DNA of 64,000 bases from Halobacillus kuroshimensis DSM 18393. GTDB taxonomy: Bacteria > Bacillota > Bacilli > Bacillales > Halobacillaceae. This document shows, one piece after another, positions 12,912 to 37,184 of the stretch. The DNA is taken from contig NZ_AUDY01000011.1 of the NCBI RefSeq assembly GCF_000425705.1, positions 186,001 through 250,000 on the forward strand. Direction: 5' to 3'. Numbering within the stretch: position 1 is the stretch's first letter; each line of letters begins with the position of its first letter. A program made the position numbers and the translations under genes. The notes under the pieces were generated by a model. It searched no databases and had not been told where the DNA came from. It was given only the letters and a program-made list of their open reading frames with translations.

Positions 12912-12920
12912 GGTGATTGG

Positions 12921-14046: not shown

Positions 14047-14067
14047 AAAAAGATTGGGAGGAATGGA

Positions 14068-15494: not shown

Positions 15495-15506
15495 GGAGGA
15501 TCAACA

Positions 15507-18688: not shown

Positions 18689-18719
18689 AACCACGTCTGA
18701 CCGGCAGACGTGGTTTATT
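18689..18719. terminator. Second hairpin, possible + strand terminator
   Basis: AACCACGTCTG / CAGACGTGGTT hairpin followed by TTATTTTG on the + strand. It overlaps the sortase stop codon and may end any read-through from the PBP gene. Confidence 0.6.
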
Positions 18720-19692: not shown

Positions 19693-19721
19693 GGACTGTC
19701 ACCTCTCTATCATAAGGAAGG

Positions 19722-19743
19722 AAGAAGAGCAGAGGCTCTTCTT
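19722..19743 (-). repeat. Hairpin between surface protein and sortase genes
   Basis: Perfect 9-bp arms AAGAAGAGC / GCTCTTCTT around a 4-nt loop, with no T-run after it. It may act as a partial terminator or RNA stabiliser, giving more surface protein than sortase. Confidence 0.5.
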
Positions 19744-19755
19744 CCATGGTAAGCA

Positions 19756-21084
19756 TTACTGCTTGGCTTTGCGGATGGAAATGAAACCGGCAGAAGCTGC
19801 AGCGATAACTCCGAAGGCGATCCACATCCATGTGTTCATTCCTTGATCGCTCGCTCCACCAAAGCCTGTCTTAGGCATTTCTTCCGGCATAACTTCTCCA
19901 CCGAATTGATCCGGCATTTGTGTCACGACAGCACTGCTCAATGTTTCGCCAATTCCGAACATGAAGGCATATCCTTCACGGAAAGAGTCGTAAGTGGCTG
20001 TATAGTCTTCATTCACGTAGTGATCGAAGGTCTGAAGGACATCTTCCTCGTGAGTCCAGACCGCTTCAACAGCATCCTCCTGTGGAAGGTTTCCTTCAGT
20101 AGCTGTACCAAGGAAGGCACCGAAGTCCTCAGAGAAGGCCATCAGGCTTTGTTCAGCCATTTTCCTTGCTTCTTCATCTTCTTCAAGAGCTGCTGTAATC
20201 ACATCAGACTGGGCGTTGATATGATCCTGCTGCCATACTTTTTCAAACTGGGCAGCACCCTCTTCACCATAAATAGATCCGATAGCAGCTTTGAAATCAG
20301 CGGTGTGCTGGTTCTCAGCCCAAGTTACGAAATCGTAGTCTTCCGCCTGGTCAAAGCCTTTCTGCATTTCAAGAACGGCTAAAGCGAAGTGTTCAGAAGC
20401 AAGAGCATTCATGTTGGAACGCAGATCTGCTGCTGGTGTATCCGCTTTTGTTCCATTAAAGGAATCCGGCATCTGCGTTACAATGGCAGAAGAAAGGGCC
20501 TTACTAATGTCGAACATACGGTTGAAACCTTCACGGAAAGCCGTATAGGATTTCTGATACTCTTCGTTTACATAGTGGTCAAAAACGTTCAGAACATCTT
20601 GTTCGTGCGCTTTCAGGACTTCTTTGGCTGTGTCTTTGGAAAGATTTCCTTCGGTTACAGATGCAAGGAACGTACTGAATTCTTCCGTGAATTCTTCAAC
20701 TTCCTCTTCTGCCATCTTACGGGCTTCTGGATCATCATTTTTCGCTGCTTCTACAAATCCATCGGAATAATCGTTATGTCCGCGGAAAATTTCTTCAAAC
20801 TGCGCAGCTGCTTCATCTCCGTAAATAGAAGCGATCGCCGGGGTCATATCCTGTGCGTTCTGATCAAGTTTGTTCCATACTTCATCAGCATCTGGTGCGT
20901 CTTCATACGATTTCATCATAAACGTTGTAGCAAGGACAAAGTGCTCGGACAATAATTGATCAAGCGTCGATCTTAGATCGGCCGCCTCCGTCTGTGCTGA
21001 TTTGTGGTGATCGGCCATGGCGACGGATGGGACAAGGAGCATCAAAGCCATTAATGTGATCAGGATTCTTTTCATTTGTTTCAT
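19756..21084 (-). CDS. Cell-wall-anchored surface protein with duplicated His-containing helical domain
   Basis: A 442-residue exported protein: signal peptide (residues 1-24), two homologous all-helical domains (about 34-205 and 217-385), then a sorting signal MPKTG at 403-407, a hydrophobic helix and a positive tail RKAKQ. The repeats share SEHF, SIYG-E-AAAQFE, a GHN/DHIN site, HE-DVL, FDHYVNE and SSA-VTQMPD. The regularly placed His and acidic residues suggest metal or haem binding in a helical bundle (inference). It lies directly upstream of a class F sortase, which probably anchors it. I do not know an established function. Confidence 0.75.
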   Translation of the reverse strand: MKQMKRILITLMALMLLVPSVAMADHHKSAQTEAADLRSTLDQLLSEHFVLATTFMMKSYEDAPDADEVWNKLDQNAQDMTPAIASIYGDEAAAQFEEIFRGHNDYSDGFVEAAKNDDPEARKMAEEEVEEFTEEFSTFLASVTEGNLSKDTAKEVLKAHEQDVLNVFDHYVNEEYQKSYTAFREGFNRMFDISKALSSAIVTQMPDSFNGTKADTPAADLRSNMNALASEHFALAVLEMQKGFDQAEDYDFVTWAENQHTADFKAAIGSIYGEEGAAQFEKVWQQDHINAQSDVITAALEEDEEARKMAEQSLMAFSEDFGAFLGTATEGNLPQEDAVEAVWTHEEDVLQTFDHYVNEDYTATYDSFREGYAFMFGIGETLSSAVVTQMPDQFGGEVMPEEMPKTGFGGASDQGMNTWMWIAFGVIAAASAGFISIRKAKQ

Positions 21085-24103: not shown

Positions 24104-25345
24104 ATGAAAAGCGGAAGTCGTAAGTGGCTGTATCTTCCGATTGAAACGAAAGTGAGAGAACTGGATGCCAAGTTACTGCTTGCATTTCATGCCATAAGTC
24201 AGGGATATCATGTCGTGATTGGAGAGCACTGGATGGTCGAGCAGGCAGCAGAAAAGCTGCCACTTGGTATTTTCCTGGCCAAGGGTTATTCGAAAGGGTA
24301 CGGCAGAAGAGTAGTGGAAAACGTAGGGAGATATCATCATAAGATTGTAGAATTGGATGAAGAGGGGTTTTTCATTCCCGATGCTCCGAAATACATCAGC
24401 CGGCGGATGAGGAAGGAGCATATTCGCCGCCTTGCCCATGTGTGCTGCTGGGGGGAGCATCAAAAAAACATCCTGACAAAAGCTTATCCCCATATGGAAA
24501 AGAGCTGTACCATTACCGGAAATCCCAGATTCGACCTGCTGAATGACACCTATAAAGAGCTGTACGCCTCCGATGTAGAAGACATTCAGGCGGATTTCGG
24601 CTCTTATATCCTCATCAATACCCGGTTTACGTTTTATAATCCGATCGGCGGGGTGAGAGAAAACGTCCATCTGCCGGAAATGGAGAAGATAAAAAGGCTC
24701 TGCCATGCTTTTATCCACCTCGCTCAGACGTTGAGCCGGGCCTGTCCCGGAAAAAACATCATCTTCCGTCCCCATCCCGGAGAGAGCCTCGACGTTTATA
24801 AGGAAGCGTTTAAAGGATTCCATAACATCCACATCCACCGGGAGCGCAGTGTGATTCACTGGATTCTCGGGGCAGAGGCTGTCATTCATAACGGCTGTAC
24901 GACCGGAATTGAAGGGGTTGTGCTGAGAAAACCGGTCATTGCCTACCAGCCTGTGATTCACTCCTCCGGTATGATGGACTTTCCCGACAGGCTGAGCATC
25001 CACGCGTTCACAGAGAACGAAGTCGTTAACATCCTGCGGCACGCTGAAAAGCCTGAACTTCCTGATGGGTTCTTTCATTATTATAGTCATCCAGCCCTCC
25101 CATCTGCCTGCACAGCCATTCTGAAAGTGTTGAACAACCAACACGTGTCCCCTGCCCCTGTCCCCTCTTTGAAAAGGCTGCGTTTCGTTAAAGACCGGCG
25201 GGAAAAAATGAAGCGGTTATTTCCATCCTTAACGACAGAAGAAATCGTACGCTTTTACTCCGGTCTGAACAAGATTACCAATAAAAACCTCTCTTATCAT
25301 ATCCACCCTTTAGCAGATCGGTTATATCTGCTTGAGGGCCTGTAA
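24104..25345 (+). CDS. Surface carbohydrate biosynthesis protein, putative GT-B-type glycosyltransferase
   Basis: A 413-residue protein of the group often named surface carbohydrate biosynthesis protein in nonulosonate clusters. The C-terminal half carries the nucleotide-sugar-type pattern seen in capsule and CDP-glycerol transferases: IIFRPHPGES, then AVIHNGCTTGIEGVVLRKPVIAY (about residues 258-280). No signal peptide or membrane helix. ATG 24104 follows GGAGGT by 7 bp; the frame extends further upstream over the terminator of the preceding gene, which argues against earlier starts. Context suggests transfer of a surface sugar. The acceptor is unknown. Confidence 0.7.
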   Translation: MKSGSRKWLYLPIETKVRELDAKLLLAFHAISQGYHVVIGEHWMVEQAAEKLPLGIFLAKGYSKGYGRRVVENVGRYHHKIVELDEEGFFIPDAPKYISRRMRKEHIRRLAHVCCWGEHQKNILTKAYPHMEKSCTITGNPRFDLLNDTYKELYASDVEDIQADFGSYILINTRFTFYNPIGGVRENVHLPEMEKIKRLCHAFIHLAQTLSRACPGKNIIFRPHPGESLDVYKEAFKGFHNIHIHRERSVIHWILGAEAVIHNGCTTGIEGVVLRKPVIAYQPVIHSSGMMDFPDRLSIHAFTENEVVNILRHAEKPELPDGFFHYYSHPALPSACTAILKVLNNQHVSPAPVPSLKRLRFVKDRREKMKRLFPSLTTEEIVRFYSGLNKITNKNLSYHIHPLADRLYLLEGL

Positions 25346-25467: not shown

Positions 25468-26466
25468 GTGTTTTACAAAGATAAGGGCATTCTGGTAATT
25501 GGTGGGACGGGCACAATTGGAAAGCGGATTGTGACGACCCTTTTGAATGAATCCCCGAAATATATCAAGGTGTTGAGCCGTGATGAATATAAGCAGTATC
25601 AATTGGAAAAAGAACTGAAGTCCGATCCGCGGGTGCAGTTTATTCTAGGAGACATCCGTCATTACGAAACGGTCTATGATGCTATGGAAAACGTAGATTA
25701 TGTGTTTCACCTGGCAGCCATGAAGCATGTGCCTTTCTGTGAAAACAATCCATATGAAGCGGTACTTACCAATATAGCAGGAACGCGCCACGTGGTGCGG
25801 GCAGCGAAGGCCCGAGGTGTCAAAAAGGTTGTGTTCACGAGTACAGATAAAGCGATTTCCCCGACGAATACGTATGGAGCTTCCAAGCTGATTGCTGAAC
25901 GACTCCTTTTATCATCCGGACAAGACAAATCTAAGGAAGGTACGATCTTCGCCAGTGTACGTTTCGGAAATGTCATGGGATCCAGAGGGTCTGTCATTCC
26001 TCTGTTTGTTAAGCAGATGGTAGAGAAGAAGCGGATTACCGTGACGGATGATCGGATGTCACGGTTCATGATGACCATTGAAGAAGCCGCTTCCTTAACG
26101 ATCCGTTCGCTGACCAGAGCGCAGGGGGGAGAAATTTTCGTCCTGAAAATGCCGGTCATTTCCCTGCAGGACCTCATTGAAGTGGTCAGGGAAGAAGTGT
26201 GTCTTGCCTATGGCTTGGACCCACATGAAATCACAGTTCAGGAGATAGGGTTGAGAGTCGGAGAAAAAATGTACGAAGAGCTGATGACCTTTGAAGAATC
26301 GACGACAGCCTGGGAATTCGAAGATATGTACGTCATCCCAGGAGATAAACAGGTCTCCTATCCGGATGCTGTCAGAACTCAAGTGGGGACATACAGCTCA
26401 AGCGATCAGAAACCAGTCTCCAAAGAAGAACTGCGCCGGCTTGTGCAGAAGCAGAATTTAATCTAA
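25468..26466 (+). CDS. pseB: PseB/CapD-like UDP-N-acetylglucosamine 4,6-dehydratase
   Basis: A 332-residue extended short-chain dehydrogenase. GGTGTIG at residues 12-18 binds NADP, T126-D127-K128 and Y136-x-x-x-K140 form the catalytic set typical of the inverting PseB/FlaA1 dehydratases, and FGNVMGSRGSVIPLF is the family substrate loop. It would convert UDP-GlcNAc to the 4-keto-6-deoxy sugar, the first step to pseudaminic acid. The start is GTG 25468, 7 bp after GAAGGAG. It is separated from the pseC-like gene by a glycosyltransferase gene, a terminator and a second dehydratase gene. CapD-type capsule dehydratase is an alternative. Confidence 0.75.
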   Translation: MFYKDKGILVIGGTGTIGKRIVTTLLNESPKYIKVLSRDEYKQYQLEKELKSDPRVQFILGDIRHYETVYDAMENVDYVFHLAAMKHVPFCENNPYEAVLTNIAGTRHVVRAAKARGVKKVVFTSTDKAISPTNTYGASKLIAERLLLSSGQDKSKEGTIFASVRFGNVMGSRGSVIPLFVKQMVEKKRITVTDDRMSRFMMTIEEAASLTIRSLTRAQGGEIFVLKMPVISLQDLIEVVREEVCLAYGLDPHEITVQEIGLRVGEKMYEELMTFEESTTAWEFEDMYVIPGDKQVSYPDAVRTQVGTYSSSDQKPVSKEELRRLVQKQNLI

Positions 26467-26481
26467 GGAAGGAAAGCAGCC

Positions 26482-27966
26482 ATGGATATGATTGAACAAA
26501 AATACTGGTCCGTGTATCTGGACTTTCTGGATGATTTTCAATCCCTCTATTATAAAGAGCACAGCATCCCCTATCTTTGTTACTACAGAGGGTTGATCCA
26601 GGGCAATAAAGGACTGATGGAAATCTACCAGCAGAAGGGGTGGGTTTCTTTTGTTCGTAACCATGTGACGGATGTACGAGTTGTTCAGCAGCGTTTTGAT
26701 GGGTATAAGGCGCGGTTTCAAAAGAATAAAATACGGGGGGAGAAAAAGAAGCTTGTGTTGTATGACGGTTACGGGCTTCTCAGGCTTCCATCTTCCACTT
26801 TATTGAGGCTGAATCGGACCTTTGAAACGCTGTACATCGTCGATCGGGAACACAGCCAGAAGAAAGGGGAGAAAAAGCCGAAGGTCAAGTCGCTGGATGA
26901 AACGGTGTTAGTGAAGAGACCGGCCAGTATGAAAAAAACAGCAGCGAGCGTCCTTCCTCCTCGTTACTTTGACGAATATAAGGTGAATGTCCATAAAGAA
27001 GTGCTGCGTCTTCAAAAAGAAGCGAAAGCGATCCTTGCCCGTAAGAAAGCGGCCGGCCACCCGGTGTACGCGGTTCCTTACTTTGAAAAAACATTGATGA
27101 AGCAGATTGACCAGGTCGTTCATCGAGTAGAACAGATCGGGGCTTTGCTGCAGCGGGAAGGGATAGGATGTGTCATCGTTCCGTATTCGCAGTATATGGA
27201 GTCACGGATCTTTTCCATCTTAGGAGCTGTTCATAATGTTCCTGTAGCTGCCCTGCAGCACGGCATCATTTCCGATGCATTCGGTTATCTTCCATGCGTC
27301 ACCGATTATAAGCTTGTCTTTGGACATTATGAGAAGCATTGGTTCCTGTCCCGCGGGGTTCCGGATAAGAGGATCTTGGTGATGGGACATCCGCGGTTTG
27401 ATGAAGTGTACAAGGCGGTTCAGACCAACGCAGCCAGAATCAAACAGCATATAGGGCTTCCCATTCATAAGAAAAACCTTCTCATTGTTGTACGAAGCAA
27501 CTATCAAATGAAAAAATGGGAGTCGTTTTTGAGATCCCTTACCCTGTCAGATTCAGTCAATCTTATTATTAAGGATTTCCCAGACCACACGCCCCATTAC
27601 TTAACAAAAAAATTCCCTTCCACCTTCCATTCCAAAAACCAGCCGTTAAGTGATTTGATCCAGCTGTCTGATGCGGTCGTCAGTTACCATTCAACCGCCG
27701 GGCTTGAAGGCTTGATGGCCGGAAAACCGGTATTTATCCTGAATAACAACTTTTATGGATACAGCGGATATTTTGATTCATTGGGACGTTTGAAGCAGGA
27801 TGACCCTGTCCGGCTGGCGGGTTTGGTCAATGCTTTTCTTAAAAACGGCGGGGTTTCCGCGCACGATGAGTCCTTGATGCAGTCATTCAAACAACGCACC
27901 TATCCGCTCGGGAACGGGGCGGAAGGTCGGCTTTTATCCTTTATCACAGGGCTTATAAAGAAATGA
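26482..27966 (+). CDS. Putative capsule-type glycosyltransferase
   Basis: A 494-residue soluble protein, 15 bp after the pseB-like gene. The C-terminal half has the GT-B features of capsule/CDP-glycerol-type transferases: PVAALQHGIISDAFGY (about 252-267), LVMGHPRFDEVY, IKDFPDHTPHY, and VVSYHSTAGLEGLMAGKPVFIL (about 396-417). The N-terminal half is basic and not recognised. It shares the fold type, but not clear sequence, with the gene at 24104. ATG 26482 follows AAGGAAGG. It probably transfers the cluster sugar or a core sugar to a surface acceptor. Confidence 0.65.
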   Translation: MDMIEQKYWSVYLDFLDDFQSLYYKEHSIPYLCYYRGLIQGNKGLMEIYQQKGWVSFVRNHVTDVRVVQQRFDGYKARFQKNKIRGEKKKLVLYDGYGLLRLPSSTLLRLNRTFETLYIVDREHSQKKGEKKPKVKSLDETVLVKRPASMKKTAASVLPPRYFDEYKVNVHKEVLRLQKEAKAILARKKAAGHPVYAVPYFEKTLMKQIDQVVHRVEQIGALLQREGIGCVIVPYSQYMESRIFSILGAVHNVPVAALQHGIISDAFGYLPCVTDYKLVFGHYEKHWFLSRGVPDKRILVMGHPRFDEVYKAVQTNAARIKQHIGLPIHKKNLLIVVRSNYQMKKWESFLRSLTLSDSVNLIIKDFPDHTPHYLTKKFPSTFHSKNQPLSDLIQLSDAVVSYHSTAGLEGLMAGKPVFILNNNFYGYSGYFDSLGRLKQDDPVRLAGLVNAFLKNGGVSAHDESLMQSFKQRTYPLGNGAEGRLLSFITGLIKK

Positions 27967-27982
27967 AGTCCTGTGATTTTTT
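27943..27982 (+). terminator. Intrinsic terminator splitting the carbohydrate cluster
   Basis: ATCACAGGGCTT / AAGTCCTGTGAT (one G-T pair) with an 11-nt loop, followed by TTTTTT. It overlaps the stop codon of the glycosyltransferase gene, so the downstream operon needs its own promoter or read-through. Confidence 0.85.
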
Positions 27983-27991
27983 CATACATAG

Positions 27992-28031
27992 CGGCATCTA
28001 GAAATATATGTATATAGGAATGCCGTTTTTT
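27992..28031 (+). terminator. Second terminator-like hairpin just upstream of the pse operon
   Basis: CGGCAT...ATGCCG closes an AT-rich, partly self-complementary loop and is followed by TTTTTT, immediately before the ribosome site of the next gene. It could be a leader attenuator. Confidence 0.5.
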
Positions 28032-28048
28032 AAGGAGGAGGGAGCTTT

Positions 28049-28990
28049 CTGAACGTACTTGTTACAGGTGGAGCAGGGTTTATCGGACGATGGGTCGTGA
28101 AGAAGTTACTGGAAGACCAGCACAATGTCTGGGTGATTGATAATTTGTCGAACGGAGACGTCGGAAATATAGAGGAGTTCCTTTCGCACAAACGTTTCAA
28201 AGCTTTTTATCATGACGATATACGCAAAGAAGATGTGATCGAACAGGTCATGAATGACTCTGTGGATATCTGCTACCATCTAGCGGCAAGTATCAATGTC
28301 CAGGACAGCATTGATGATCCGCAGACAACATTCTATAACGATACGGTTGCGGCCTTTCATTTACTGGAAAGCTGCAGAAAGCACAAGGTAAGATTTGTAT
28401 TCATGAGCACGTGTATGGTGTATGATCAAGCATCCAACCCTCAAGGGATTACCGAAAAGGACCCGGTAAAACCAGCTTCTCCCTATGCCGGTTCGAAAAT
28501 TGCTGCAGAAAACATGGTGTTGTCCTACTTTCATGCCTACCAGATGCCTGTCACGATCGTACGCCCTTTCAACACGTACGGTCCTTTTCAAAAGACAGGA
28601 GGAGAAGGTGGTGTGGTTCCTATTTTCATAAAGAAAAAGCTGAACAAAGATCCTATTGAGATTTATGGAAACGGGGAGCAGACCCGTGATCTTTTATACG
28701 CGGAAGACTGTGCGCGCTTCGTTGTGGAGGCGGGTCTCCATAAAGAGGCCTTTGGGGAAATTTTGAATGCGGGTCTGGGGCGCGATGTGTCGATCAATCA
28801 GCTGGCTGAGCTGATTGCAGACGGCCGGACGTCGATTACCCACATCGAACACATTCACCCACAAAGTGAGATTTCCAAGCTGTTGTGCGATTTTTCCAAA
28901 GCCAAAGAGATCCTCGGCTGGGAGCCTGAAGTAGGTTTAGAGGAGGGAATCCGCCGGACAGAGGAATGGATCAAATCCAACCGTATGTAA
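28049..28990 (+). CDS. NAD-dependent epimerase/4,6-dehydratase (extended SDR), CTG start
   Basis: A 313-residue extended SDR. The dinucleotide motif VTGGAGFIG lies at residues 5-13, and the active-site set is TCMVY (121-125) plus Y146-x-x-x-K150; RPFNTYGP and GEQTRDLLYAEDCA are typical of UDP-sugar dehydratases/epimerases (LegB/RfbB/GalE relatives). No ATG, GTG or TTG exists before the Rossmann strand; CTG 28049 has AAGGAGG about 10 bp upstream and gives a normal N-terminus, so CTG is the likely start. A GTG at 28097 would destroy the cofactor site. First gene of the pse operon; may epimerise or dehydrate a UDP-HexNAc. Confidence 0.78.
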   Translation: MNVLVTGGAGFIGRWVVKKLLEDQHNVWVIDNLSNGDVGNIEEFLSHKRFKAFYHDDIRKEDVIEQVMNDSVDICYHLAASINVQDSIDDPQTTFYNDTVAAFHLLESCRKHKVRFVFMSTCMVYDQASNPQGITEKDPVKPASPYAGSKIAAENMVLSYFHAYQMPVTIVRPFNTYGPFQKTGGEGGVVPIFIKKKLNKDPIEIYGNGEQTRDLLYAEDCARFVVEAGLHKEAFGEILNAGLGRDVSINQLAELIADGRTSITHIEHIHPQSEISKLLCDFSKAKEILGWEPEVGLEEGIRRTEEWIKSNRM

Positions 28991-29003
28991 AGGAGCTGGG
29001 CAG

Positions 29004-30206
29004 GTGGGAGGCAAGCTTGCTGTATTTGGTGGAAAGCCTGTACGTCATTCGTTTCTCCCTTATGGAAGTCAGTGGATATCCAAGGAAGATAAAGAAGCTG
29101 TGGAAAGGGTTTTGAGCAGTCCCTATTTAACGACAGGACCTGCCGTAGCCAGCTTTGAAAGAAAAACAGCCGCTTATACAGGGGCCGCCTATGCGGTTTC
29201 CTTTTCCAGTGGCACGGCAGCGCTGCATGCCGCTTGTTTTACTGCCGGCATCGGGAAAGGGGACGAAGTCATCACCTCCCCTCTCACCTTTGCTGCCAGT
29301 GCCAACTGTGTCTTGTACTGCGGAGGCACGCCGGTTTTTGCTGATGTAGACCCCCGCACATATCTGATTACACCGGAAAGTATCGAAGCCGCTGTTACCG
29401 AGCGGACGAAAGCGGTCATTCCTGTAGATTTCACCGGACAGCCGGCTGATTATGAAGCCATCAGAAAAGTGGCGGACAAATACAATCTGCTTATCATCGA
29501 AGACGCCGCTCATGCGCTGGGGGCTTCCTATCGCGCACAGAAAGTCGGAGCTCTCAGTGATATGACGATGTTCAGCTTTCACCCCGTGAAACCAGTGACC
29601 ACCGGAGAAGGTGGCATCATTACGACGAATGATGAGAACTGGTACAAAACGCTTCTTCAATTCCGTACTCATGGCATTACGAAGCATGCCGCTGATTTTA
29701 TACAAGAACGCGCGCCGTGGGAGTATGAAATGCAGTTTCTCGGATTCAACTATCGGATGACCGATCTGCAGGCAGCTCTTGGGGAAAGCCAGCTGGACCG
29801 GCTGGATACGTTCACCTCAATGAGGGAAGCTTATGCGGATTATTACAACAACGCCTTCAGGACCGTGAAGGGTGTAACGATCCCTTATCAGGAACAGGGC
29901 CGGCGTTCGAGCTGGCACTTGTATATCCTTAAGCTTGATGAGGAGATGATTGACCGTCGGAAAGAGATTTTTGAGGCATTGACAGCGGAGAACATCGGGG
30001 TGAACGTCCATTACATGCCGGTATATGAACAGCCGTACTATCAGAAAAACGGCTTTGATCAGGTCAGCTGCCCAACCGCAGAAAAGCTGTATCAGCAATT
30101 CCTCACCCTCCCGCTTTTTCCCGCGATGGGCCAACAGGATCTGGATGATGTGATCGAAGCTGTCCGGAAGGTTTTGGATTATTACCGGGATGGGGCGGGC
30201 TCATGA
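29004..30206 (+). CDS. pseC: PseC-like UDP-sugar 4-aminotransferase (PLP-dependent)
   Basis: A 400-residue DegT/DnrJ/EryC1/StrS-family aminotransferase. Pyridoxal phosphate binds Lys196 in SFHPVKPVTTGEGG; this HPVKP form is characteristic of PseC, unlike the HATK form of LegC. SSGTAALHAA, EDAAHALGASY and GFNYRMTDLQAALG are the other family blocks. It would add an amino group at C4 of the keto sugar. Start is GTG 29004, 8 bp after AAGGAG. It also resembles SpsC of spore coat polysaccharide clusters. Confidence 0.85.
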   Translation: MGGKLAVFGGKPVRHSFLPYGSQWISKEDKEAVERVLSSPYLTTGPAVASFERKTAAYTGAAYAVSFSSGTAALHAACFTAGIGKGDEVITSPLTFAASANCVLYCGGTPVFADVDPRTYLITPESIEAAVTERTKAVIPVDFTGQPADYEAIRKVADKYNLLIIEDAAHALGASYRAQKVGALSDMTMFSFHPVKPVTTGEGGIITTNDENWYKTLLQFRTHGITKHAADFIQERAPWEYEMQFLGFNYRMTDLQAALGESQLDRLDTFTSMREAYADYYNNAFRTVKGVTIPYQEQGRRSSWHLYILKLDEEMIDRRKEIFEALTAENIGVNVHYMPVYEQPYYQKNGFDQVSCPTAEKLYQQFLTLPLFPAMGQQDLDDVIEAVRKVLDYYRDGAGS

Positions 30207-31264
30207 GAGCAGCCATCCGTGTCGACGCATCGGTCCAGTGGGGGACCGGGCATATGATGCGCTGTCTGACCTTGGCGGAAGATCTTCGTGACCGTGGAGC
30301 CCATGTATTTTTCATATGCCGAAGCTGCCCGGAAAGTCTTGTGCAGGTGGCTGTGAACCAGTCTTTTTCTGTGTATAGGCTTGAGGACAACGGAGAATTT
30401 TCTTATAAAAAGGATGCAGACCAGACGAAGGAGCTGCTTCAATCATGGGGGCTCATCGACTGGCTGATTGTCGACCATTACCAACTGGACGCCAGTTGGG
30501 AGGAAGAGGTGCGGCCGTTGGTGAAAGGACTGATGGTCATTGATGATCTGGCTGACCGCCGGCATGCCTGTGATGTACTGTTGGACCAAAATGTCTGCAG
30601 CAATCTTCATAAACGGTATACTGATTTGATTCCTTCGTCAGCTGTCCGTCTTCTCGGACCGGACTATCTTCTTTTAAGAAAGGAATTTCTTCAGGCAGGT
30701 AAGGGGCGTAGTGGAAACATCAATCATCTTCTGATCAGCTTCGGAGGCAGCGATCCTTCCGGTCAGACGTTGAAAGCGATCGAAGCTGTCCAGCATATGA
30801 CAGATCTGACTGTGACCATCGTTGTCGGTGGAGCGAACGAGAAGGAGGCGGTCATTCGGAAATACGTGTCCCGGTTTCCACACATGACTCTTCACGTGCA
30901 GACCAGTCAAATGGCACGGCTGATGGAAGAGGCTGACCTCGTCATAGGAGCTGGCGGCTCATCCATCTGGGAGTGCTGCTATATGAATCTTCCAGTGATT
31001 GTCATTCAAACAGCTGCCAATCAGGCCGCCACCATCGCTGCTTTGAAAGAGAGAAAAGCCGTTTGCTATGTGGGAAAGGGTATGGATGTGCAGGTGGACC
31101 GGTTGAAAAGGGCTGTTGAAAAGCTTGTCTACAACCCAGCCACCGCCCGGGAAATGGCCGGTCGATTTTCTCAAATCATGGATGGGTACCGCCCAGGACG
31201 TGCGGCAGCTTGTTTAATTAACTGGAATAACTCTCCTGACTTACCGGGGAGGAAGAAGGGATAA
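30203..31264 (+). CDS. pseG: PseG-like UDP-sugar hydrolase (SpsG family)
   Basis: A 353-residue GT-B-fold hydrolase. The N-terminal loop GTGHMMRC contains the catalytic His17, and LISFGGSDPSGQTLKAI and VIGAGGSSIWECCYMNLPVI are typical of PseG/SpsG. It removes UDP from the 2,4-diamino sugar before condensation with phosphoenolpyruvate. It overlaps pseC by 4 bp (ATGA), so translation is coupled. Confidence 0.87.
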   Translation: MRAAIRVDASVQWGTGHMMRCLTLAEDLRDRGAHVFFICRSCPESLVQVAVNQSFSVYRLEDNGEFSYKKDADQTKELLQSWGLIDWLIVDHYQLDASWEEEVRPLVKGLMVIDDLADRRHACDVLLDQNVCSNLHKRYTDLIPSSAVRLLGPDYLLLRKEFLQAGKGRSGNINHLLISFGGSDPSGQTLKAIEAVQHMTDLTVTIVVGGANEKEAVIRKYVSRFPHMTLHVQTSQMARLMEEADLVIGAGGSSIWECCYMNLPVIVIQTAANQAATIAALKERKAVCYVGKGMDVQVDRLKRAVEKLVYNPATAREMAGRFSQIMDGYRPGRAAACLINWNNSPDLPGRKKG

Positions 31265-31273
31265 GGTTCCCCC

Positions 31274-32341
31274 ATGGAATTCAGCATTCAAGGCCGTCGC
31301 ATCGGGAGCGGTCATCCACCATTCATCATTGCGGAGATGTCAGGCAATCATAATCAATCGCTGACGAGAGCCCTTACCATGGTCGACCATGCCGCCGCAT
31401 GCGGGGTGGATGCTTTGAAAATACAAACGTATAAACCGGAGACGATGACGCTCTCCAGCAACCAGCCGGATTTTGTGATTAAGGATGAACAAAGCCAATG
31501 GGATGGAAAAAAGCTTTATGACTTGTATGAGGAAGCGAAAACCCCGTGGGAATGGCATGAGAAGGTGTTCAGCAGATGCCGGGAAGCGGGGATTATTGGT
31601 TTCAGCACCCCTTTTGATGAATCAGCAGTAGATTTCCTGGAAGCGTGTCACGTTCCGTTATATAAGATATCCTCCTTTGAGAATACAGACCTCTCCTTAA
31701 TTGAAAAAGTGGTGAAAACAGGGAAACCGGTCATCATCTCCACCGGAATGGCGTCCTTAAGTGAGGTGGAGGATATGGTGAAAACGGTAAGGGACAGTGG
31801 AGGCAGCCAATTTGTCCTGCTGAAGTGCACAAGCACCTATCCGGCACCTCCCGCTCACTCCAACATCAGCACAATTCCACATATGGCGCAGACATTTTCC
31901 TGCCCTGTGGGCCTCTCCGACCACACGCTCGGCATCGGGGCGGCCGTTGGAAGTGTGGCCCTGGGCGCGTCCGTCATAGAAAAGCATTTCGTGCTGGATC
32001 GGTCTGAAGGAGGCGTAGATGCTTCTTTTTCTCTGGAGCCCTCAGAAATGAAACAGCTGGTACAAGAATCGAAAAACGTGTGGCAGGCAATGGGGAGGAT
32101 CTCTTATGGAGATACTCCGGAAGACGAAAGAGCGAGAAATTACCGAAGGTCTCTTTATATTTCGAAGGATGTAAAGAAAGGGGAGACATTTACAGACGAG
32201 AATATTCGAGCGGTCCGCCCGGGCTACGGCCTGCTCCCGAAATACAAAAGCGTCTTCCTTGGGAAGCGGGCGCCGTTTGCCATCTCCAAAGGCACCCCGC
32301 TGAGCTGGAATATGCTTACGGGAAGGCGGAATGATGTATGA
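31274..32341 (+). CDS. pseI: Pseudaminic acid synthase-like NeuB-family enzyme (PseI/SpsE)
   Basis: A 355-residue protein with a TIM barrel (about 15-275; FIIAEMSGNHNQSLTRAL, GVDALKIQTYKPETMTL, STPFDESAVDFLE, GLSDHTLGIGAA, ASVIEKHFVLDRSEGG VDASFSL blocks) and a C-terminal antifreeze-like SAF domain (about 295-350, RRSLYISKDVKKGETFTDENIRAVRPG region). It condenses a 6-carbon amino sugar with phosphoenolpyruvate to a nonulosonic acid. The SGNHNQ and TYKPETMTL forms point to PseI rather than sialic acid NeuB. It overlaps the next gene by 4 bp. Confidence 0.88.
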   Translation: MEFSIQGRRIGSGHPPFIIAEMSGNHNQSLTRALTMVDHAAACGVDALKIQTYKPETMTLSSNQPDFVIKDEQSQWDGKKLYDLYEEAKTPWEWHEKVFSRCREAGIIGFSTPFDESAVDFLEACHVPLYKISSFENTDLSLIEKVVKTGKPVIISTGMASLSEVEDMVKTVRDSGGSQFVLLKCTSTYPAPPAHSNISTIPHMAQTFSCPVGLSDHTLGIGAAVGSVALGASVIEKHFVLDRSEGGVDASFSLEPSEMKQLVQESKNVWQAMGRISYGDTPEDERARNYRRSLYISKDVKKGETFTDENIRAVRPGYGLLPKYKSVFLGKRAPFAISKGTPLSWNMLTGRRNDV

Positions 32342-33075
32342 ACGTTGTGGCTGTCATCCAAGCGAGAATGGGCTCCACGCGCCTGCCTGGGAAAGTGCTG
32401 AAAATGGCAGCGGGAAAACCTCTCCTGCAGTACCAGATTGAACGTGTCCAACGGGCGTCCTGTATCGATCAGCTTGTCGTGAGTACGACTGTTCAATCTG
32501 GTGATGATGCGATTGAACACTTGTGCAGCCAGCTTGGAACGGCCTGCTTCAGAGGATCGGAAAAGGATGTATTGGAACGCTTTTACTTGACGGCCTCCCA
32601 CTATCAGGCAGACGTTGTGATCCGGCTTACCGGGGACTGTCCTCTGATGGACCCTGCCGTTGTTGATGAGGTTACCGCTCTCTTTCACCATCACTATCCG
32701 AAATATCCGTATGTATCCAATACAAAAATTCGTACGTATCCAAGAGGAATGGACATCGAAGTATTTACATTCGAAGCTCTCTATCATTCTCACTTGATTG
32801 CAGATGACAGCTACACACGTGAGCATGTGACAGCAAAAATGATCCGCGATACCCGCCTGTTCAAACACAATCATCTCTTGTATAAGAGGGATGAAAGCAG
32901 ACACCGATGGACGGTGGACACTATAGAAGATTTCCAGCTGGTTGCAAAGATCCTTGAACATCTCTACCCACAAAATCCCCGTTTTACTTTGGAGGACGCG
33001 CTCGCTTTGTTGGACGCCCACCCCGAATGGACGGAAATCAACCATCATATCCAGCAGAAAAAAGGAGGAGGATGA
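32338..33075 (+). CDS. Cytidylyltransferase (SpsF/PseF-like), CMP-sugar activation
   Basis: A 245-residue nucleotidyltransferase: VVAVIQARMGSTRLPGKVL binds the nucleotide (residues 3-21), RLTGDCPLMDP (about 98-108) and the HRWTVDTIEDF block (about 193-203) are typical of SpsF-type cytidylyltransferases. It would activate the nonulosonic acid as a CMP-sugar. It is coupled to pseI by an ATGA overlap and to the next gene by overlap of the stop. SpsF is known from spore coat polysaccharide synthesis; PseF is the flagellar counterpart. Confidence 0.82.
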   Translation: MNVVAVIQARMGSTRLPGKVLKMAAGKPLLQYQIERVQRASCIDQLVVSTTVQSGDDAIEHLCSQLGTACFRGSEKDVLERFYLTASHYQADVVIRLTGDCPLMDPAVVDEVTALFHHHYPKYPYVSNTKIRTYPRGMDIEVFTFEALYHSHLIADDSYTREHVTAKMIRDTRLFKHNHLLYKRDESRHRWTVDTIEDFQLVAKILEHLYPQNPRFTLEDALALLDAHPEWTEINHHIQQKKGGG

Positions 33076-33611
33076 TGATTGAATTCGAGAGATTGAAAGA
33101 ATCCCATCTCGATCTGGTGTTACAGTGGAGAACCTCCTCATTTGTAACACGGTACATGTATACAGATATACAGCCGGACCGAGGCAGACACCAGGCCTGG
33201 TTCGAATCGGTCTCCCAATCCGACACGGACCTCTACTGGGTGGCTGCGATCGATGCAGTGCCTGTCGGTGTGCTTTCTCTAAGTGACATCCATGCTGTCC
33301 ATAAACGGGCCGTTTTCGGTTATTACATAGGTGAGGAAAAATACCGGATCTATGGTGGAATCCTTCCTCTCTATCTATATAACCACGTTTTCAGCAATCT
33401 TTCTTTGAATAAGCTGACAGCAGAGGTGATGGAGGGGAACGACAAGGTTGTGAAGCTCAATACCTTCCATGGATTTCGTATGGTCGGTACACGTAAAGAT
33501 CATGTGATCAAGCATGGAAAAAGCCATGACGTCCACCTGATGGAGCTTCTGAAATCCGACTGGGAGAAGAAAAGCAGGCTCTTTAAAAAATATACCGCAC
33601 CTTTTTGCTAA
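33075..33611 (+). CDS. GNAT-family acyltransferase, PseH-like
   Basis: A 178-residue GCN5-related acyltransferase: an N-terminal FERLKESHLDLVLQWR, AFGYYIGEE-type core strand (here AVFGYYIGEEKYRIYGG) and NKLTAEVMEGNDKVVKLNTFHGFRMVGTRKDHV, matching PseH-type proteins that N-acylate the 4-amino sugar. ATG 33075 was chosen because AAAGGAGG is 6 bp before it; ATG 33072 is also possible. Since an acyl carrier protein and ligase follow, the donor here may be an acyl-ACP rather than acetyl-CoA (inference). Confidence 0.75.
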   Translation: MIEFERLKESHLDLVLQWRTSSFVTRYMYTDIQPDRGRHQAWFESVSQSDTDLYWVAAIDAVPVGVLSLSDIHAVHKRAVFGYYIGEEKYRIYGGILPLYLYNHVFSNLSLNKLTAEVMEGNDKVVKLNTFHGFRMVGTRKDHVIKHGKSHDVHLMELLKSDWEKKSRLFKKYTAPFC

Positions 33612-33626
33612 GAAGGAGGAGGAGAC

Positions 33627-33863
33627 GTGCAGGATAAATTGATCGTGATTGTTAACGACATGTGTAAAGATAATGGCCTGCCACCCTTGAAGCGCCTGGA
33701 TGCCGACCAGCATCTCAGGGATGATTTGAACATGGACTCCTTGATGCTCGCTGAACTGACGGTCCGGGTGGAGAGTGAATTCGGCGTGGATATCTTTGAG
33801 GATGGCCTTGTTGAAACGATGGGAGACGTCATCAGGAAAATCGAAGGGCATCAGGGTCCATGA
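33627..33863 (+). CDS. Stand-alone acyl carrier protein
   Basis: A 78-residue four-helix carrier protein. The phosphopantetheine site is Ser38 in DDLNMDSLMLAEL, preceded by LRDDL and followed by an acidic recognition helix (VRVESEFGVDIFEDG). It is not the housekeeping AcpP, since it lies inside the sugar operon. Start is GTG 33627 after AAGGAGGAGG; its end overlaps the ligase gene by 4 bp. It would carry an acyl group destined for the sugar. Confidence 0.82.
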   Translation: MQDKLIVIVNDMCKDNGLPPLKRLDADQHLRDDLNMDSLMLAELTVRVESEFGVDIFEDGLVETMGDVIRKIEGHQGP

Positions 33864-35104
33864 AGAATCTTTTCCTTGCTTCCAAAGGACATCAGTATAC
33901 GTACGAGGAGCTCTTTAGGGATGTGGGCAGCAGGAAAATGGCGTGTTCCAGGATTTTTGTGAAAGGGAACCACCCGTATCAGATTTTCGCAGCGATCGTC
34001 CATAGTCTGTGGCTCGATTATCCGGTAGAGCTGTTGGACGGAGATTTTTCTGATGAAGAATTGAAAAGGATGGGGATCCAAGCCTCTGACCTCCAGCCGG
34101 CTTTGTTGGACGGTCTTCCTGAGCATCCCCCGTCTCATGAGGAAGTAACGGCCCGTCTTCATCCAAAAAACTGGACCTTGTCCCTATATACGTCAGGAAC
34201 AACCGGACGTCCGAAAAAAGTCACTCATCGGTATGAATCGTTAACACGGCAGGTGAAAACCGGCAGCCAATGGAAGGACCATGTGTGGGGGTTTGCCTAT
34301 AACCCTACACACATGGCCGGTCTGCAGGTCTTCTTTCAAGCCTTCTGCAATAAAAATCCAATGATCTATGTGTTCAATGAAGAGCAGAAACGGCTGCCTG
34401 ATTTGATTGAGCCATATCAAATCACGCATCTGTCCGCTACCGCTACCTACTATCGCAATATTTTTCCCAGGCTTCAGTCGAAGACCTATCCGTGCGTCAG
34501 GCGGATCACATTTGGCGGCGAAGGCTTTGATGACCGATTGTCGGAGAAGATGAAGCAGGTTTTCCCCCATGCCCAGATCAGGAATGTGTATGCCTCGACA
34601 GAAGCAGGGAGTGTATTTGCTGGAAACGGCCGCACCTTTACCATACCCTCCTCCATAAAAGACTTGGTGAAAATCAATGAAAACCAGGAACTGCTCATCC
34701 ATCAGTCGCTGGTCGGTACAATGGAAAACGCAGAGGTCGGCAGCGAATGGCTGAATACCGGAGATGTTGTACAGAAAGTCGGGGCAGATGAATTCGCTTT
34801 TGTATCCAGAAATTCTGATTTTATTAATGTCGGGGGGTACAGGGTGAATCCGTTGGAAGTCGAAGCTGTGCTGACAGCGGTCCCGGGAGTGGCGGATGCG
34901 TTGGTGAAAGGGAAGAAAAATAGTGTAACAGGAAACCTCCTTACCGCTGATATCGTGAAGGAGGCAGACGCTGAAGAGGATGAAGTGAAGAAAGCGGTCC
35001 GGGAGCACGCCTCACGCACCCTGCAGCCGTGGAAAGTACCGAGGATCCTGGCGTTTGTCGAAGACATTCCGAAAACGCGCACAGGAAAGAAGGTCAGAGA
35101 ATGA
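33860..35104 (+). CDS. Short AMP-forming acyl ligase (ANL superfamily)
   Basis: A 414-residue adenylating enzyme, shorter than the usual 500-550, with a reduced N-terminal domain. Motifs: the P-loop LYTSGTTGRPKK (residues 109-120), FGGEGFDDRL, NVYASTEAGSVF, WLNTGDVV, and a C-terminal catalytic Lys in KTRTGKKVRE. It would activate a carboxylic acid with ATP and load it on the adjacent carrier protein. Coupled by ATGA overlaps to both neighbours. The acid is unknown. Confidence 0.8.
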   Translation: MKNLFLASKGHQYTYEELFRDVGSRKMACSRIFVKGNHPYQIFAAIVHSLWLDYPVELLDGDFSDEELKRMGIQASDLQPALLDGLPEHPPSHEEVTARLHPKNWTLSLYTSGTTGRPKKVTHRYESLTRQVKTGSQWKDHVWGFAYNPTHMAGLQVFFQAFCNKNPMIYVFNEEQKRLPDLIEPYQITHLSATATYYRNIFPRLQSKTYPCVRRITFGGEGFDDRLSEKMKQVFPHAQIRNVYASTEAGSVFAGNGRTFTIPSSIKDLVKINENQELLIHQSLVGTMENAEVGSEWLNTGDVVQKVGADEFAFVSRNSDFINVGGYRVNPLEVEAVLTAVPGVADALVKGKKNSVTGNLLTADIVKEADAEEDEVKKAVREHASRTLQPWKVPRILAFVEDIPKTRTGKKVRE

Positions 35105-35826
35105 AGTGGATCATTGTCACCGGTGAATCCAGAGGAGTGGGAAAGGCTATTGCCAGAGAAATCTTAATGGAAGGAACGTATGGGGTCATCGGCATCAGCC
35201 GATCGAAAGGTGCCGAAGTCGAAGATCTGAAGCAGCTGGGAGGGGAACACTTTGTCCACCTTACCTACGATTTAGAAAACGTGGAAGGGATCAAATCGTT
35301 ATACCTGCAGCAGCTGAAACGGCTCGGGGTCATTCATGGGTTTGTGAACAATTCCGCATGGGCCTATGATGACATTATTTCCAACCTCCGCGTCGATCCG
35401 CTTGAGAAGATGTTCCGAATCAACGTCCTGAGTCCCATGCACCTGACCAAATATGTGATTCGGGATATGCTTTTGAACAAAACGGAAGGATCGATCGTGC
35501 ACATCTCTTCCATCAGTGCCCACACCGGATACAAAGGATTAAGCATGTACGCGTCTACAAAAGGGGCCATCGAAGCGTTCTCGAAAAATACGGCGCGGGA
35601 ATGGGGGGCACGGGGCATCCGTTCCAACTGCGTGATCCCCGGGTTTATGAATACAGCCATGAGTGCTTCCTTAACGGACGAACAGAAGGAGAGAATTTAC
35701 AGAAGAAATGCGATGAAGAAAGAAACCGCGATGGCCAGTGTCGTACGCACCGTTCTTTTTCTTTTATCCGATCAGTCCTCTTCGATCACGGGAACAGGTA
35801 TACATGTAGATAATGGAACGATATAA
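35101..35826 (+). CDS. FabG-like short-chain dehydrogenase/reductase
   Basis: A 241-residue classical SDR: TGESRGVGKA (residues 7-16, normal form TGASRGIG), NNSA, the catalytic SSIS-x-H...YASTK set, and a C-terminal GTGIHVDNG. Such enzymes reduce 3-ketoacyl-ACP or oxidise hydroxyacyl groups. ATG 35101 overlaps the ligase stop by 4 bp; the frame is open further upstream but those starts lie within the ligase. Last gene of the operon. It probably sets the hydroxyl group of the acyl substituent (inference); a sugar-modifying role is possible. Confidence 0.8.
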   Translation: MKWIIVTGESRGVGKAIAREILMEGTYGVIGISRSKGAEVEDLKQLGGEHFVHLTYDLENVEGIKSLYLQQLKRLGVIHGFVNNSAWAYDDIISNLRVDPLEKMFRINVLSPMHLTKYVIRDMLLNKTEGSIVHISSISAHTGYKGLSMYASTKGAIEAFSKNTAREWGARGIRSNCVIPGFMNTAMSASLTDEQKERIYRRNAMKKETAMASVVRTVLFLLSDQSSSITGTGIHVDNGTI

Positions 35827-35859
35827 AAAACCGCAGATCCCCTGGATCTGCGGTTTTTT
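35825..35859 (+). terminator. Intrinsic terminator of the pse/acyl operon
   Basis: AAAAAACCGCAGATCC / GGATCTGCGGTTTTTT hairpin with CCT loop and T-run. Confidence 0.92.
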
Positions 35860-36218
35860 GGCTGGGGCTGCTAAACCCATAAGTAAGCTCCAGCTGAATG
35901 CTGGAGCCTCCGCCACCTATACCTATACAAACGTTCGTCTCTTATGTTCTTTTATATCTCTACTTCAGATGGCTCAAACTAAAGATACCATATAAAGGGG
36001 GATAAGTTAACTAAATTGTCGGAAAAAATCATAGGTCTTTAAGTTCATTTTATTACTTATATAATCTTTTTTAACTTTTGTTGAAAAGGGAGAAGACCCT
36101 TCAATTCCTGATATACCCATCGGCTTCTTTCTTTGTTCCATAGATAGGGATATAGTATAGTGGAAATGAGCGTGATAATTCTGAAAAATAGTGCGTCAGG
36201 GAGGAAGGGGTACATCAA
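35860..36218. other. AT-rich intergenic stretch before moxR
   Basis: About 360 bp. A small hairpin CTCCAGC-TGAAT-GCTGGAG is at 35888-35906. TATAGT near 36150 may be a -10 box of the moxR operon, but no clear -35 is visible. No gene is supported. Confidence 0.4.
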
Positions 36219-37184
36219 ATGTCTCAGCAAACGTTTCTCTATCAGCCGAAAGTAACCGAGGTACTTAACAATATTAGAAAAGTGATGATTGGAAAGGAAG
36301 AAGCAGCGCTTTTGAGCGTTGTGGCCCTTCTGGCAAAGGGGCATGTTCTGCTTGAGGATGTTCCTGGAGTAGGGAAGACGATGCTTGTCAAAACGCTTGC
36401 GAAATCCTTGGATTGTGATTTTAAGAGAATTCAATTTACACCGGATCTGCTGCCTTCAGATGTGACTGGTGTTTCCATTTATAACCCGAAGACATTGGAG
36501 TTCGAGTTCCGTCCAGGCCCCATTCTCGGAAACATCGTTCTGGCCGATGAAATCAACCGGACGTCGCCGAAGACGCAGTCCGCCCTGTTGGAAGGGATGG
36601 AGGAGACGAGCATTACCGTGGATGGGAGTACAGTCCAGCTCGGAGAGCCTTTCTTTGTCATGGCAACCCAGAACCCTATCGAATATGAAGGAACCTACCC
36701 GCTGCCGGAAGCACAGCTGGATCGTTTTCTTTTGAAAATGGAAATGGGCTATCCTACACCGAAGCAGGAGATGGAAATGCTTGCCCGTACGTCAAACAGT
36801 CATCCGATTGAAGAAATCTCAGCTGTGATATCAAGAGAAGAACTGGTGGGGCTTCAAAAGGAAACCGCCCAGGTCTATGTGGACCGCTCCGTCCATCGTT
36901 ATATCGTAGACCTTGTTACAGGAACACGTCACCATGAAGGAGTCTACTTAGGCGTGAGTCCGAGGGGATCGATTTCTTTGATGAAAGCGGCCAAAGCCTA
37001 TGCGTTTGTCCATGATCGCGATTATGTGCTTCCGGACGATGTGCAGTTCATGGCTCCGTATGTGCTCGGCCACCGGATGATTTTAACGTCCGAAGCGAGG
37101 TTTGAAGGGAAGACGTCCGCCTCTATCATTGAGGAGCTTCTCACGGCTACTTCGATTCCGGTGAAAAGGACGACCGGGGAATGA
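36219..37184 (+). CDS. yeaC: MoxR-type AAA+ ATPase
   Basis: A 321-residue AAA+ protein: Walker A DVPGVGKTML (about 47-56), Walker B ADEINR (about 108-113), and the TQNPIEYEGTYPLPEAQLDRFLLK block diagnostic of MoxR (sensor 1 and arginine finger area). MoxR proteins act as chaperone-like ATPases, usually with DUF58 partners. ATG 36219 follows GGGAGGAAGGGG. It corresponds to yeaC of B. subtilis in this conserved order; it overlaps the next gene by 4 bp. Confidence 0.88.
   Translation: MSQQTFLYQPKVTEVLNNIRKVMIGKEEAALLSVVALLAKGHVLLEDVPGVGKTMLVKTLAKSLDCDFKRIQFTPDLLPSDVTGVSIYNPKTLEFEFRPGPILGNIVLADEINRTSPKTQSALLEGMEETSITVDGSTVQLGEPFFVMATQNPIEYEGTYPLPEAQLDRFLLKMEMGYPTPKQEMEMLARTSNSHPIEEISAVISREELVGLQKETAQVYVDRSVHRYIVDLVTGTRHHEGVYLGVSPRGSISLMKAAKAYAFVHDRDYVLPDDVQFMAPYVLGHRMILTSEARFEGKTSASIIEELLTATSIPVKRTTGE

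Follow-up and report, generated by a model that had tools for sequence, protein, structure and literature searches.

A divergent PseH linked to a proposed acyl-priming cassette in a pseudaminic acid operon of Halobacillus kuroshimensis

The window analyzed here, a 64,000-nucleotide stretch of the Halobacillus kuroshimensis DSM 18393 genome (contig NZ_AUDY01000011.1, positions 186,001 to 250,000), contains an operon whose genes amount to a full Pen/Pal-type CMP-pseudaminic acid (Pse) pathway, as judged by sequence, plus three more: an acyl carrier protein (ACP), an AMP-forming (ANL) ligase and a short-chain dehydrogenase/reductase (SDR). Directly before this trio lies PseH′, a divergent N-acyltransferase of the GNAT type. 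Gene content indicates that PseH′ replaces the canonical PseH of related operons and that the exchange goes together with the cassette. We consider it probable that an acetyl-CoA-using enzyme has thereby been exchanged for one that, together with the acyl-priming cassette, would place a hydroxyacyl group on the sugar instead of acetate. A sequence-only reading of the same DNA had proposed that a private ACP/ligase/reductase route feeds an unusual N-acyl group, perhaps a hydroxyacyl, to the GNAT. That proposal is supported by the exchange of PseH, the recurrence of the gene block, the loss of a CoA-binding loop and kinship with the antibiotic enzymes TmlQ and TmlS; the hydroxyacyl guess gains support as well.

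The exchange is visible in gene order. PseH exceeds its model cut-off in 15 of the 44 genomes of the window's family, two of which, the window and a congener (G011), carry the cassette. Of the 13 without it, 11 place PseH between PseG and PseI (nine as separate genes, two as PseG-PseH fusions); two differ. In the window, the gap between PseG and PseI is 9 bases and holds no PseH; PseH′ (33072-33611, + strand) and the trio, namely the ACP (33627-33863, +), ligase (33860-35104, +) and SDR (35101-35826, +), stand at the operon's 3′ end. G011 likewise lacks PseH between PseG and PseI and ends its operon with PseH′-ACP-ANL-SDR. The cassette-free regions were retrieved in full for seven of the 13, and four of these (L246, L247, L248 and L250) occupy the window's own MoxR-DUF58-transglutaminase site; in L246, a few open reading frames (ORFs) separate the operon from those genes. 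In alteromonads, 24 of 177 genomes searched have PseH over the cut-off: 19 with this cassette, four with the TmlQ-type cassette described below and one other.

PseH′ scores 125.1 bits against TIGR03585 (cut-off 93.1). Its scores are 58-69 bits, at 25-27% identity, against the canonical PseHs that three congeners carry at the same site, and 121-143 bits against the PseHs of the four TmlQ-type operons (L239-L242). The PseH tree, which omits L137 and L161 and includes 10 of the 13 control PseHs (without G041 and the two PseG-PseH fusions), places the window and G011 with L239-L242 and four Azospirillum-type PseHs, two from Azospirillum and two from alteromonads (support 100/95). Two further groups are made up of the 10 canonical PseHs (95/89) and of 32 alteromonad cassette PseHs (100/99).

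The differences extend to the donor site. In Helicobacter pylori PseH, Gly103 and Lys133 bind the CoA pyrophosphate, the acetyl group lies near Leu91, Leu125 and Glu126, and the thioester carbonyl is at Ile93 and Tyr138 (PMC4363471). The CoA-phosphate loop [KR]GxG is found in all 11 control PseHs (10 from the window's family and one alteromonad) and in none of 42 cassette-linked ones. Its counterpart in the window reads YRIYGG, with RxxGG common to the window, G011 and the TmlQ-type operons, and PGSG in 32 of 32 alteromonad cassette PseHs. At position 93, every control has Phe and all 32 alteromonad cassette PseHs have Cys; in the window's group, Ser occurs four times, Phe four times and Tyr twice, the window having Tyr. 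Position 134, which touches pantetheine, is Ser in 10 of the 11 controls and Val in all 10 members of the window's group. Position 138, that of the general acid Tyr138 in H. pylori PseH, does not discriminate, as it is Asn in the window and His in all 11 controls. These changes fit an altered donor and acyl group, short of proving one.

The linkage of PseH to the trio recurs in distant bacteria. Close relatives of the ligase occur in two of the 44 family genomes (the window and G011, whose ligase is 81% identical). A ligase profile finds at least three of 249 genomes at the order level (the window, G1204 and G1251, the latter two adding two Bacillota loci). In the family of Paraglaciecola L013, at least 44 of 325 genomes match at E ≤ 1e-30, and a search across the class yields at least two of 369 at 1e-35. 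The ligase is much commoner in alteromonads than in the window's own family or order. The searches at 398, 369, 249 and 325 genomes scored part of each genome's first-look candidates, so their counts are lower bounds. Searched class- and phylum-wide, the window ligase or ACP alone returned only the window itself (at least one of 398; one of 299), and no relative was confirmed in a scan of viral sequences. The L013 ligase finds 14 plasmid records at E ≤ 1e-25, none of them between 2e-42 and that limit, and 12 are from Azospirillum. A contig scan with a six-ligase alignment was dominated by other ANL enzymes (at least 594 pattern matches); among the best 80 of 351 relatives, only Paraglaciecola L013 was distinct as a cassette relative by neighborhood and score.

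Forty of the 44 alteromonad loci could be evaluated for the block as a whole. All 40 have the ACP, 38 the SDR (two are cut by contig ends) and 35 PseI within the fetched region, and in 36 PseH stands directly before the ACP, as in Paraglaciecola L013, where the order is PseB-PseC-PseF-X-PseI-PseG-PseH-ACP-ANL-SDR. A gene-neighborhood search thus recovers PseH-ACP-ANL-SDR as a conserved block in alteromonads. That the set is common there had escaped the sequence-only reading, and the trio is not always found with unrelated partners. The four weakest loci, excluded from these counts, are L175-L178, from alteromonad-family genomes of about 3 Mb in which a cassette-related ligase has no recognized ACP or SDR beside it.

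At a minority of loci, the trio keeps company with other acyltransferases or polyketide genes. Where PseH is absent, another acyltransferase usually adjoins: an LbH or NeuD-like protein in L169, L170, L103, L105, L009 and L012. L171 has a formyltransferase-like match and a sub-threshold GNAT match beside the trio, and L172 a sub-threshold GNAT match. L171 is a Pse operon in which the formyltransferase-like gene (7785-8453; 27.0 bits, cut-off 26.1) stands at the position expected for PseH, ahead of the ACP cassette. In two Bacillota from other families, NeuB-like genes accompany the trio, which in L103 lies beside a NeuD/PglD-type protein; in L104, the trio precedes a FliD-like gene (by eye) and no acyltransferase beside it could be named. 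In Azospirillum L007 and L008, the trio is found between pseI and a flagellin gene and is accompanied by KAS III, a hydrolase and another ACP-like gene.

Such loci raise the question of whether PseH′ still acetylates, while the trio only shares the transcript and supplies an acyl group for some unrelated product or for O-acylation of the glycan at a later stage. The trio does occur elsewhere without Pse genes, beside polyketide or polysaccharide genes, and PseH′ passes the PseH cut-off. We nevertheless find this improbable: PseH is exchanged together with the trio and adjoins it at most alteromonad loci, the loop is changed in all 42 cassette-linked PseHs, and library scans of the operon ORFs recognized no O-acyltransferase.

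The remaining evidence comes from antibiotic priming cassettes. In thiomarinol biosynthesis, TmlQ and TmlS reportedly turn succinyl-CoA into 4-hydroxybutyryl-ACP via a CoA/ACP bis-thioester. In mupirocin biosynthesis, MupQ, MupS and MacpD, the closest trio that has been characterized, make the 3-hydroxypropionyl starter (3-hydroxypropionyl-ACP) from malonyl-CoA (PMC10098928). The thiomarinol plasmid (L010) carries counterparts of the mupirocin trio, and we assigned the names TmlQ, TmlS and TacpD to its ORFs from gene order. Among 114 ligases in one tree, a branch separates all 72 generic ANL enzymes (SH-aLRT 99; 79 generics were trimmed and seven of these skipped) from the 30 rows of the cassette family, two of L175-L178 and ten TmlQ-type ligases. 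The TmlQ-type ligases make up one clade (100), the cassette family plus its two added rows a second (98). A smaller tree with bootstraps and 13 generics, which left out eight of 21 generic ligases (ORFs of at least 700 aa), gives the same picture.

The SDRs behave similarly. Cassette SDRs and TmlS make up a 31-row set (99/96) that excludes 27 other SDRs, among them three FabGs; L008 is missing from this tree, the cassette SDRs L262 and L279 were removed from the generic set, and L255 was counted as generic. The sole apparent intruder, L255, adjoins another TmlQ-type ligase. This pair is a second one of TmlQ/TmlS type in genome G1346, away from the same genome's Pse operon. In Pse operons of four alteromonad genomes (L239-L242), PseH has as its immediate neighbors a TmlQ-type ligase (35-38% identical to TmlQ), an SDR and an ACP-like protein, the last of which was named by eye in L239, where it matches nothing in Pfam. 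Because the cassette family and the TmlQ type both occur beside PseH, we recognize two related cassette types tied to it.

TmlQ-type genes also turned up in other surroundings. On a Bradyrhizobium plasmid (L283), a TmlQ-type ligase and an SDR precede an annotated ACP and a type I polyketide synthase. A Burkholderia stagnalis plasmid (L282) repeats this arrangement, with a hypothetical protein and an SDR-annotated gene of 6.3 kb, and on a Rhizobium plasmid (L284) such a ligase and SDR lie near a halogenase gene.

The SDR of the window had been called FabG-like. Sequence comparison suggests that it is probably not a FabG: the best FabG model gives 154.6 of the 297.75 bits required, the protein falls under every FabG cut-off among the best 25 of its 228 matches, and it groups with TmlS, away from the three FabGs. 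This result bears on a variant of the acyl switch in which the group is 3-hydroxybutyryl, the ACP being charged with acetoacetate or an acyl group from fatty acid synthesis and the SDR acting as a β-ketoacyl reductase. A Pse with a 7-N-(R)-3-hydroxybutanoyl group, Pse5Ac7(R-3-hydroxybutanoyl), is known from Acinetobacter K93 (PMC6333632), KAS III adjoins the Azospirillum cassettes, and the best library matches of the SDR are, as for TmlS, FabG models. However, the tree separates the SDRs from the FabGs, the ligases adjoin TmlQ, and there is no ketosynthase among the scanned ORFs at 25468-35826, where the GNAT adjoins the cassette instead. We therefore rate 3-hydroxybutyryl as unlikely, while still giving it some weight.

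The ligase speaks to a further alternative, in which the trio activates an amino acid to give an N-aminoacyl sugar. An ANL enzyme with a small carrier protein does have the layout of DltA/DltC, and TIGR01733, a generic model of amino acid adenylation, is the fourth match of the ligase, far below its cut-off (91 of 317 bits). Yet there is no DltA model among the best 25 of the 92 matches of the window ligase, its nearest relatives are acyl-priming ligases, and the SDR would have no evident role in that chemistry, leaving hardly any probability to an aminoacyl product.

Returning to the replacement of acetate by a hydroxyacyl group, we infer the catalytic steps, the use of acyl-ACP, the acyl group, its donor and the target as follows. 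The ANL ligase would use chemistry of the MupQ/TmlQ type to load a short acyl group onto the private ACP, and the SDR would reduce the bound group to hydroxyacyl-ACP. PseH′ would then transfer the hydroxyacyl to the 4-amino group of UDP-4-amino-4,6-dideoxy-L-AltNAc, in place of acetate. PseG, PseI and the SpsF-like enzyme would convert the product to a CMP-Pse that bears an N-acetyl group at C5 and an N-hydroxyacyl group at C7.

For the acyl group, we lean tentatively, and short of calling it probable, toward 4-hydroxybutyryl, with 3-hydroxypropionyl and 3-hydroxybutyryl as alternatives, because marine 4-hydroxybutyryl sugars are known and one alteromonad-family cluster would suit such a sugar. 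That cluster, L169, from a 2.7-Mb genome, has the order FdtA-[ACP-ANL-SDR]-LbH-aminotransferase (DegT), with RmlB, RmlC, RmlD and a sulfotransferase. By analogy, this gene set would suit a sulfated N-4-hydroxybutanoyl amino sugar. We take Idiomarina abyssalis to be an alteromonad. Its 2-O-sulfate-3-N-(4-hydroxybutanoyl)-3,6-dideoxy-D-glucose, a sulfated Qui3N, is named in a title cited in PMC7281560 and PMC9695755, and 4-hydroxybutyryl amides on 3-amino-3,6-dideoxy sugars are reported from marine gammaproteobacteria including Pseudoalteromonas nigrifaciens (PMC3210612). The favored product, Pse5Ac7(4-hydroxybutyryl), would have a calculated residue mass of 360.15 and the second candidate, Pse5Ac7(3-hydroxypropionyl), one of 346.14; the calculated value for Pse5Ac7Ac is 316.13. 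Aeromonas AH-3, which has the group II gene fgi-1, makes a 376.14-Da Pse derivative (PMC7874193). By calculation, this mass is 60.02 over Pse5Ac7Ac, matching C2H4O2, and fits a dihydroxybutyryl-sized acyl group.

A wider proposal seems to us possible rather than probable. PseH′ may be an acyl-ACP-dependent nucleotide-sugar N-acyltransferase fed by antibiotic-type priming, in which an ACP is charged from a dicarboxylyl-CoA and the bound group then reduced to an omega-hydroxyacyl; cassette and PseH may be mobile between phyla as an acyl-swap module that rewrites N7 of Pse; and many of the "fatty acid" genes of flagellin and spore glycan islands may be such modules.

Several observations weigh against the acyl switch or parts of it. 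PseH′ is still recognized by the PseH model, and its donor may be an acyl-CoA. The control PseHs are few, and the TmlQ-type PseHs retain the canonical Phe93. PseH′ matches the PseHs of two other genera of the family at 96-97 bits, so its contrast with canonical PseHs is not uniform, and the order of the larger PseH groups is unsure because of long branches, for which the tree gave a warning chiefly about two Epsilonproteobacterial PseHs. In G1325, PseH is followed by an SDR with no recognized ligase or ACP. For Azospirillum, PseH is about 8 kb from the cassette in L007, and the 31-kb region of L008 yielded none; the KAS III and hydrolase genes beside these cassettes fit 3-hydroxyacyl chemistry equally well. 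The window ligase adjoins the TmlQ clade without falling inside it, and the sister status of cassette and TmlQ-type ligases assumes a root among the generics of an unrooted tree. Kinship of the SDRs is an imperfect guide as well, since the 31-row TmlS set excludes those of the four Pse operons with a TmlQ-type cassette, which come in at the next branch outward (35 rows, 100/95). TacpD has 111 aa, far more than the 78 aa of the window ACP, our literature search found no biochemistry on any member of the window's ligase family, and the L169 genome is not shown to be Idiomarina.

The nine genes that had been described at 28049-35826 are all present, in the order and on the strand claimed. The first, then labeled an SDR dehydratase, is identified as Pal, the second nucleotide-sugar enzyme of the Pen/Pal route (28049-28990, +; best PDB match 6bwl, "Pal", E 1.7e-139); it apparently starts at CTG 28049, preceded by a strong ribosome-binding site, AAGGAGGAGGG. 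The aminotransferase PseC (29004-30206, +; TIGR03588, 485.4 bits, cut-off 423.5), the UDP-sugar hydrolase PseG (30203-31264, +; TIGR03590, 282.5 bits, cut-off 153.6) and the pseudaminic acid synthase PseI (31274-32341, +; TIGR03586, 482.9 bits, cut-off 340.3) follow. An SpsF-like cytidylyltransferase, the probable CMP-Pse synthetase, comes next (32338-33075, +; PF02348, CTP_transf_3, 97 bits); against PseF (TIGR03584) it reaches only 40 bits with a cut-off of 205.7, and its relatives likewise carry the SpsF type. After PseH′ stand the ACP with its DSL motif (PF00550, 34.5 bits), the short ANL ligase of 414 aa (PF00501, PF13193), placed next to TmlQ by the trees, and the TmlS-like SDR.

Four-base ATGA overlaps occur at five of the eight junctions (PseC/PseG, PseI/SpsF, SpsF/PseH, ACP/ANL and ANL/SDR). 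A strong intrinsic terminator begins at the SDR stop codon (35824-35860, +; -25.4 kcal/mol, z -4.99), and none of 200 shuffles was equally stable. The description of a tight unit with one terminator at its end is thus upheld; its proposed left edge is not. Two genes precede Pal on the same strand: Pen, a PseB-like UDP-GlcNAc dehydratase (25468-26466, +; PF02719, 328.8 bits; TIGR03589 PseB, 293 bits, under the cut-off of 408), and a glycosyltransferase-like gene (26482-27966, +), a candidate Pse transferase that weakly matches Capsule_synth and NF046086 (BFO_1060 family, 40 bits, cut-off 200). This second gene ends 82 bases before Pal, and L244, L246, L247, L248 and L250 also have a homologue of it between Pen and Pal. 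Because these two genes share the strand and all eleven genes recur in identical order in congener G011 (locus L106), the transcription unit very likely starts upstream of Pal and includes them. A sigma-70-type scan of 27000-37000 found no + strand promoter-like site at 28049, and a sigma-K -10 pattern matched 15 times with 14.0 expected, a chance level, with no + strand site before the operon. A further neighbor, perhaps in the unit, ends 122 bp before Pen (24104-25345, +) and resembles a surface carbohydrate biosynthesis protein. Its L106 homologue, equated by eye, scores 336.6 bits against TIGR04396 (cut-off 125), and the longer window ORF at this gene has only a sub-threshold Glyphos_transf match.

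Since Pen, Pal, PseC, PseG, PseI and a cytidylyltransferase are all present, we read the operon as a complete CMP-Pse pathway of the Pen/Pal type plus three additional genes; Pen and the SpsF-type synthetase match their nearest models under the cut-offs. The nonulosonic acid core recognized earlier is confirmed by Pen and Pal and by PseC, PseG, PseI and PseH, which exceed NCBIfam cut-offs. In Bacillus subtilis, sps genes make legionaminic acid on spores (PMC7439481), and the sugar here could be another such nonulosonic acid. With Pen and Pal in place and four enzymes over cut-offs specific to Pse, this is very unlikely.

As the target at this site, the spore surface is a fair guess by analogy, since genes of the BMQ_0737 morphogenetic spore coat family lie near the Pse operons of L246 (7612-8253) and L249 (12205-12885; 192 and 202 bits, cut-off 71) and B. 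subtilis places nonulosonic acid on its spore crust via sps genes (PMC7439481). The window itself has no counterpart of the coat gene (best E 0.22). Elsewhere, flagella are the likelier target, because the Azospirillum clusters adjoin annotated flagellin and L239 and L241 adjoin FliS-like genes (by eye).

Other features of the window deserve mention. At 18715-21084 (-), a class F sortase-like gene (143 bits, cut-off 166) adjoins a protein that weakly matches the GVDTG sorting signal (20.8 of 29 bits), and the two may be a sortase and its substrate. The genes at 10895-16121 (+), named by eye, are structural and accessory genes of urease and, after them, a nickel-transporter-like gene. At 597-2159 (-), an actin-like segregation protein (ParM/Alp7 type by eye) is followed by a small gene.

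Until now, ACP, reductase and ligase genes in glycan islands have been taken for lipid genes whose product is not known. If our interpretation is right, many marine, soil and spore-former surface sugars would bear hydroxyacyl groups predictable from gene order. Such sugars could be searched for by exact mass and used in the enzymatic synthesis of CMP-Pse analogues. Recurrence of the block in distant bacteria means that the acyl group can be sought directly, and the acetyl- and acyl-type PseHs at the same site in one genus would form a natural pair for finding what determines donor choice.

Each part of the system has known likenesses. Hydroxyacyl amides of Pse are found at N7 in Acinetobacter K93 and in Tannerella, where the group is 7-N-glyceroyl (PMC9912281), and at N5 in Psychrobacter, where it is 5-N-lactoyl (PMC7281560). 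There the chemistry is known, unlike in the window, and the available portions of these reports do not tie the acyl supply to an ACP cassette. The lipid-type genes in Gram-negative flagellin islands that the sequence-only reading mentioned are indeed on record: genes for an ACP, a reductase and an AMP-dependent synthetase are described from the islands of Aeromonas group II and of enterobacteria (PMC7874193, PMC4875605). These are the same three kinds of gene, likened here by description only, in islands for Pse or other flagellin glycans, where they are termed fatty acid genes. Unlike the window, the Aeromonas islands additionally hold LuxE/LuxC, with no N-acyl priming assigned in the text available, and the enterobacterial paper proposes a liposugar (PMC4875605).

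The window shares Pen, Pal, PseC, PseG, PseI, a PseH-type GNAT and a cytidylyltransferase with the Pen/Pal CMP-Pse pathway of Bacillus thuringiensis, also found in Geobacillus type IV islands (PMC5109656), but it lacks the canonical PseH and adds PseH′ and ACP-ANL-SDR; the words "carrier protein," "acyl" and "ligase" do not occur in the main text of the Geobacillus island paper. Open-access literature on Pse with ACP, ligase, reductase or PseH, in the portions available, showed no link to N-acyl priming or PseH exchange. Like the window, the mupirocin and thiomarinol cassettes (MupQ/MupS/MacpD and TmlQ/TmlS/TacpD) combine a contiguous ANL ligase, SDR and discrete ACP. The window differs from them in its ACP-ANL-SDR order, its shorter ligase and ACP, and its neighbor, a sugar-pathway GNAT rather than a polyketide synthase, with no ketosynthase. 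The component parts are thus of known kinds, and as far as we have seen within the open-access literature searched, their combination and the exchange of PseH are new.

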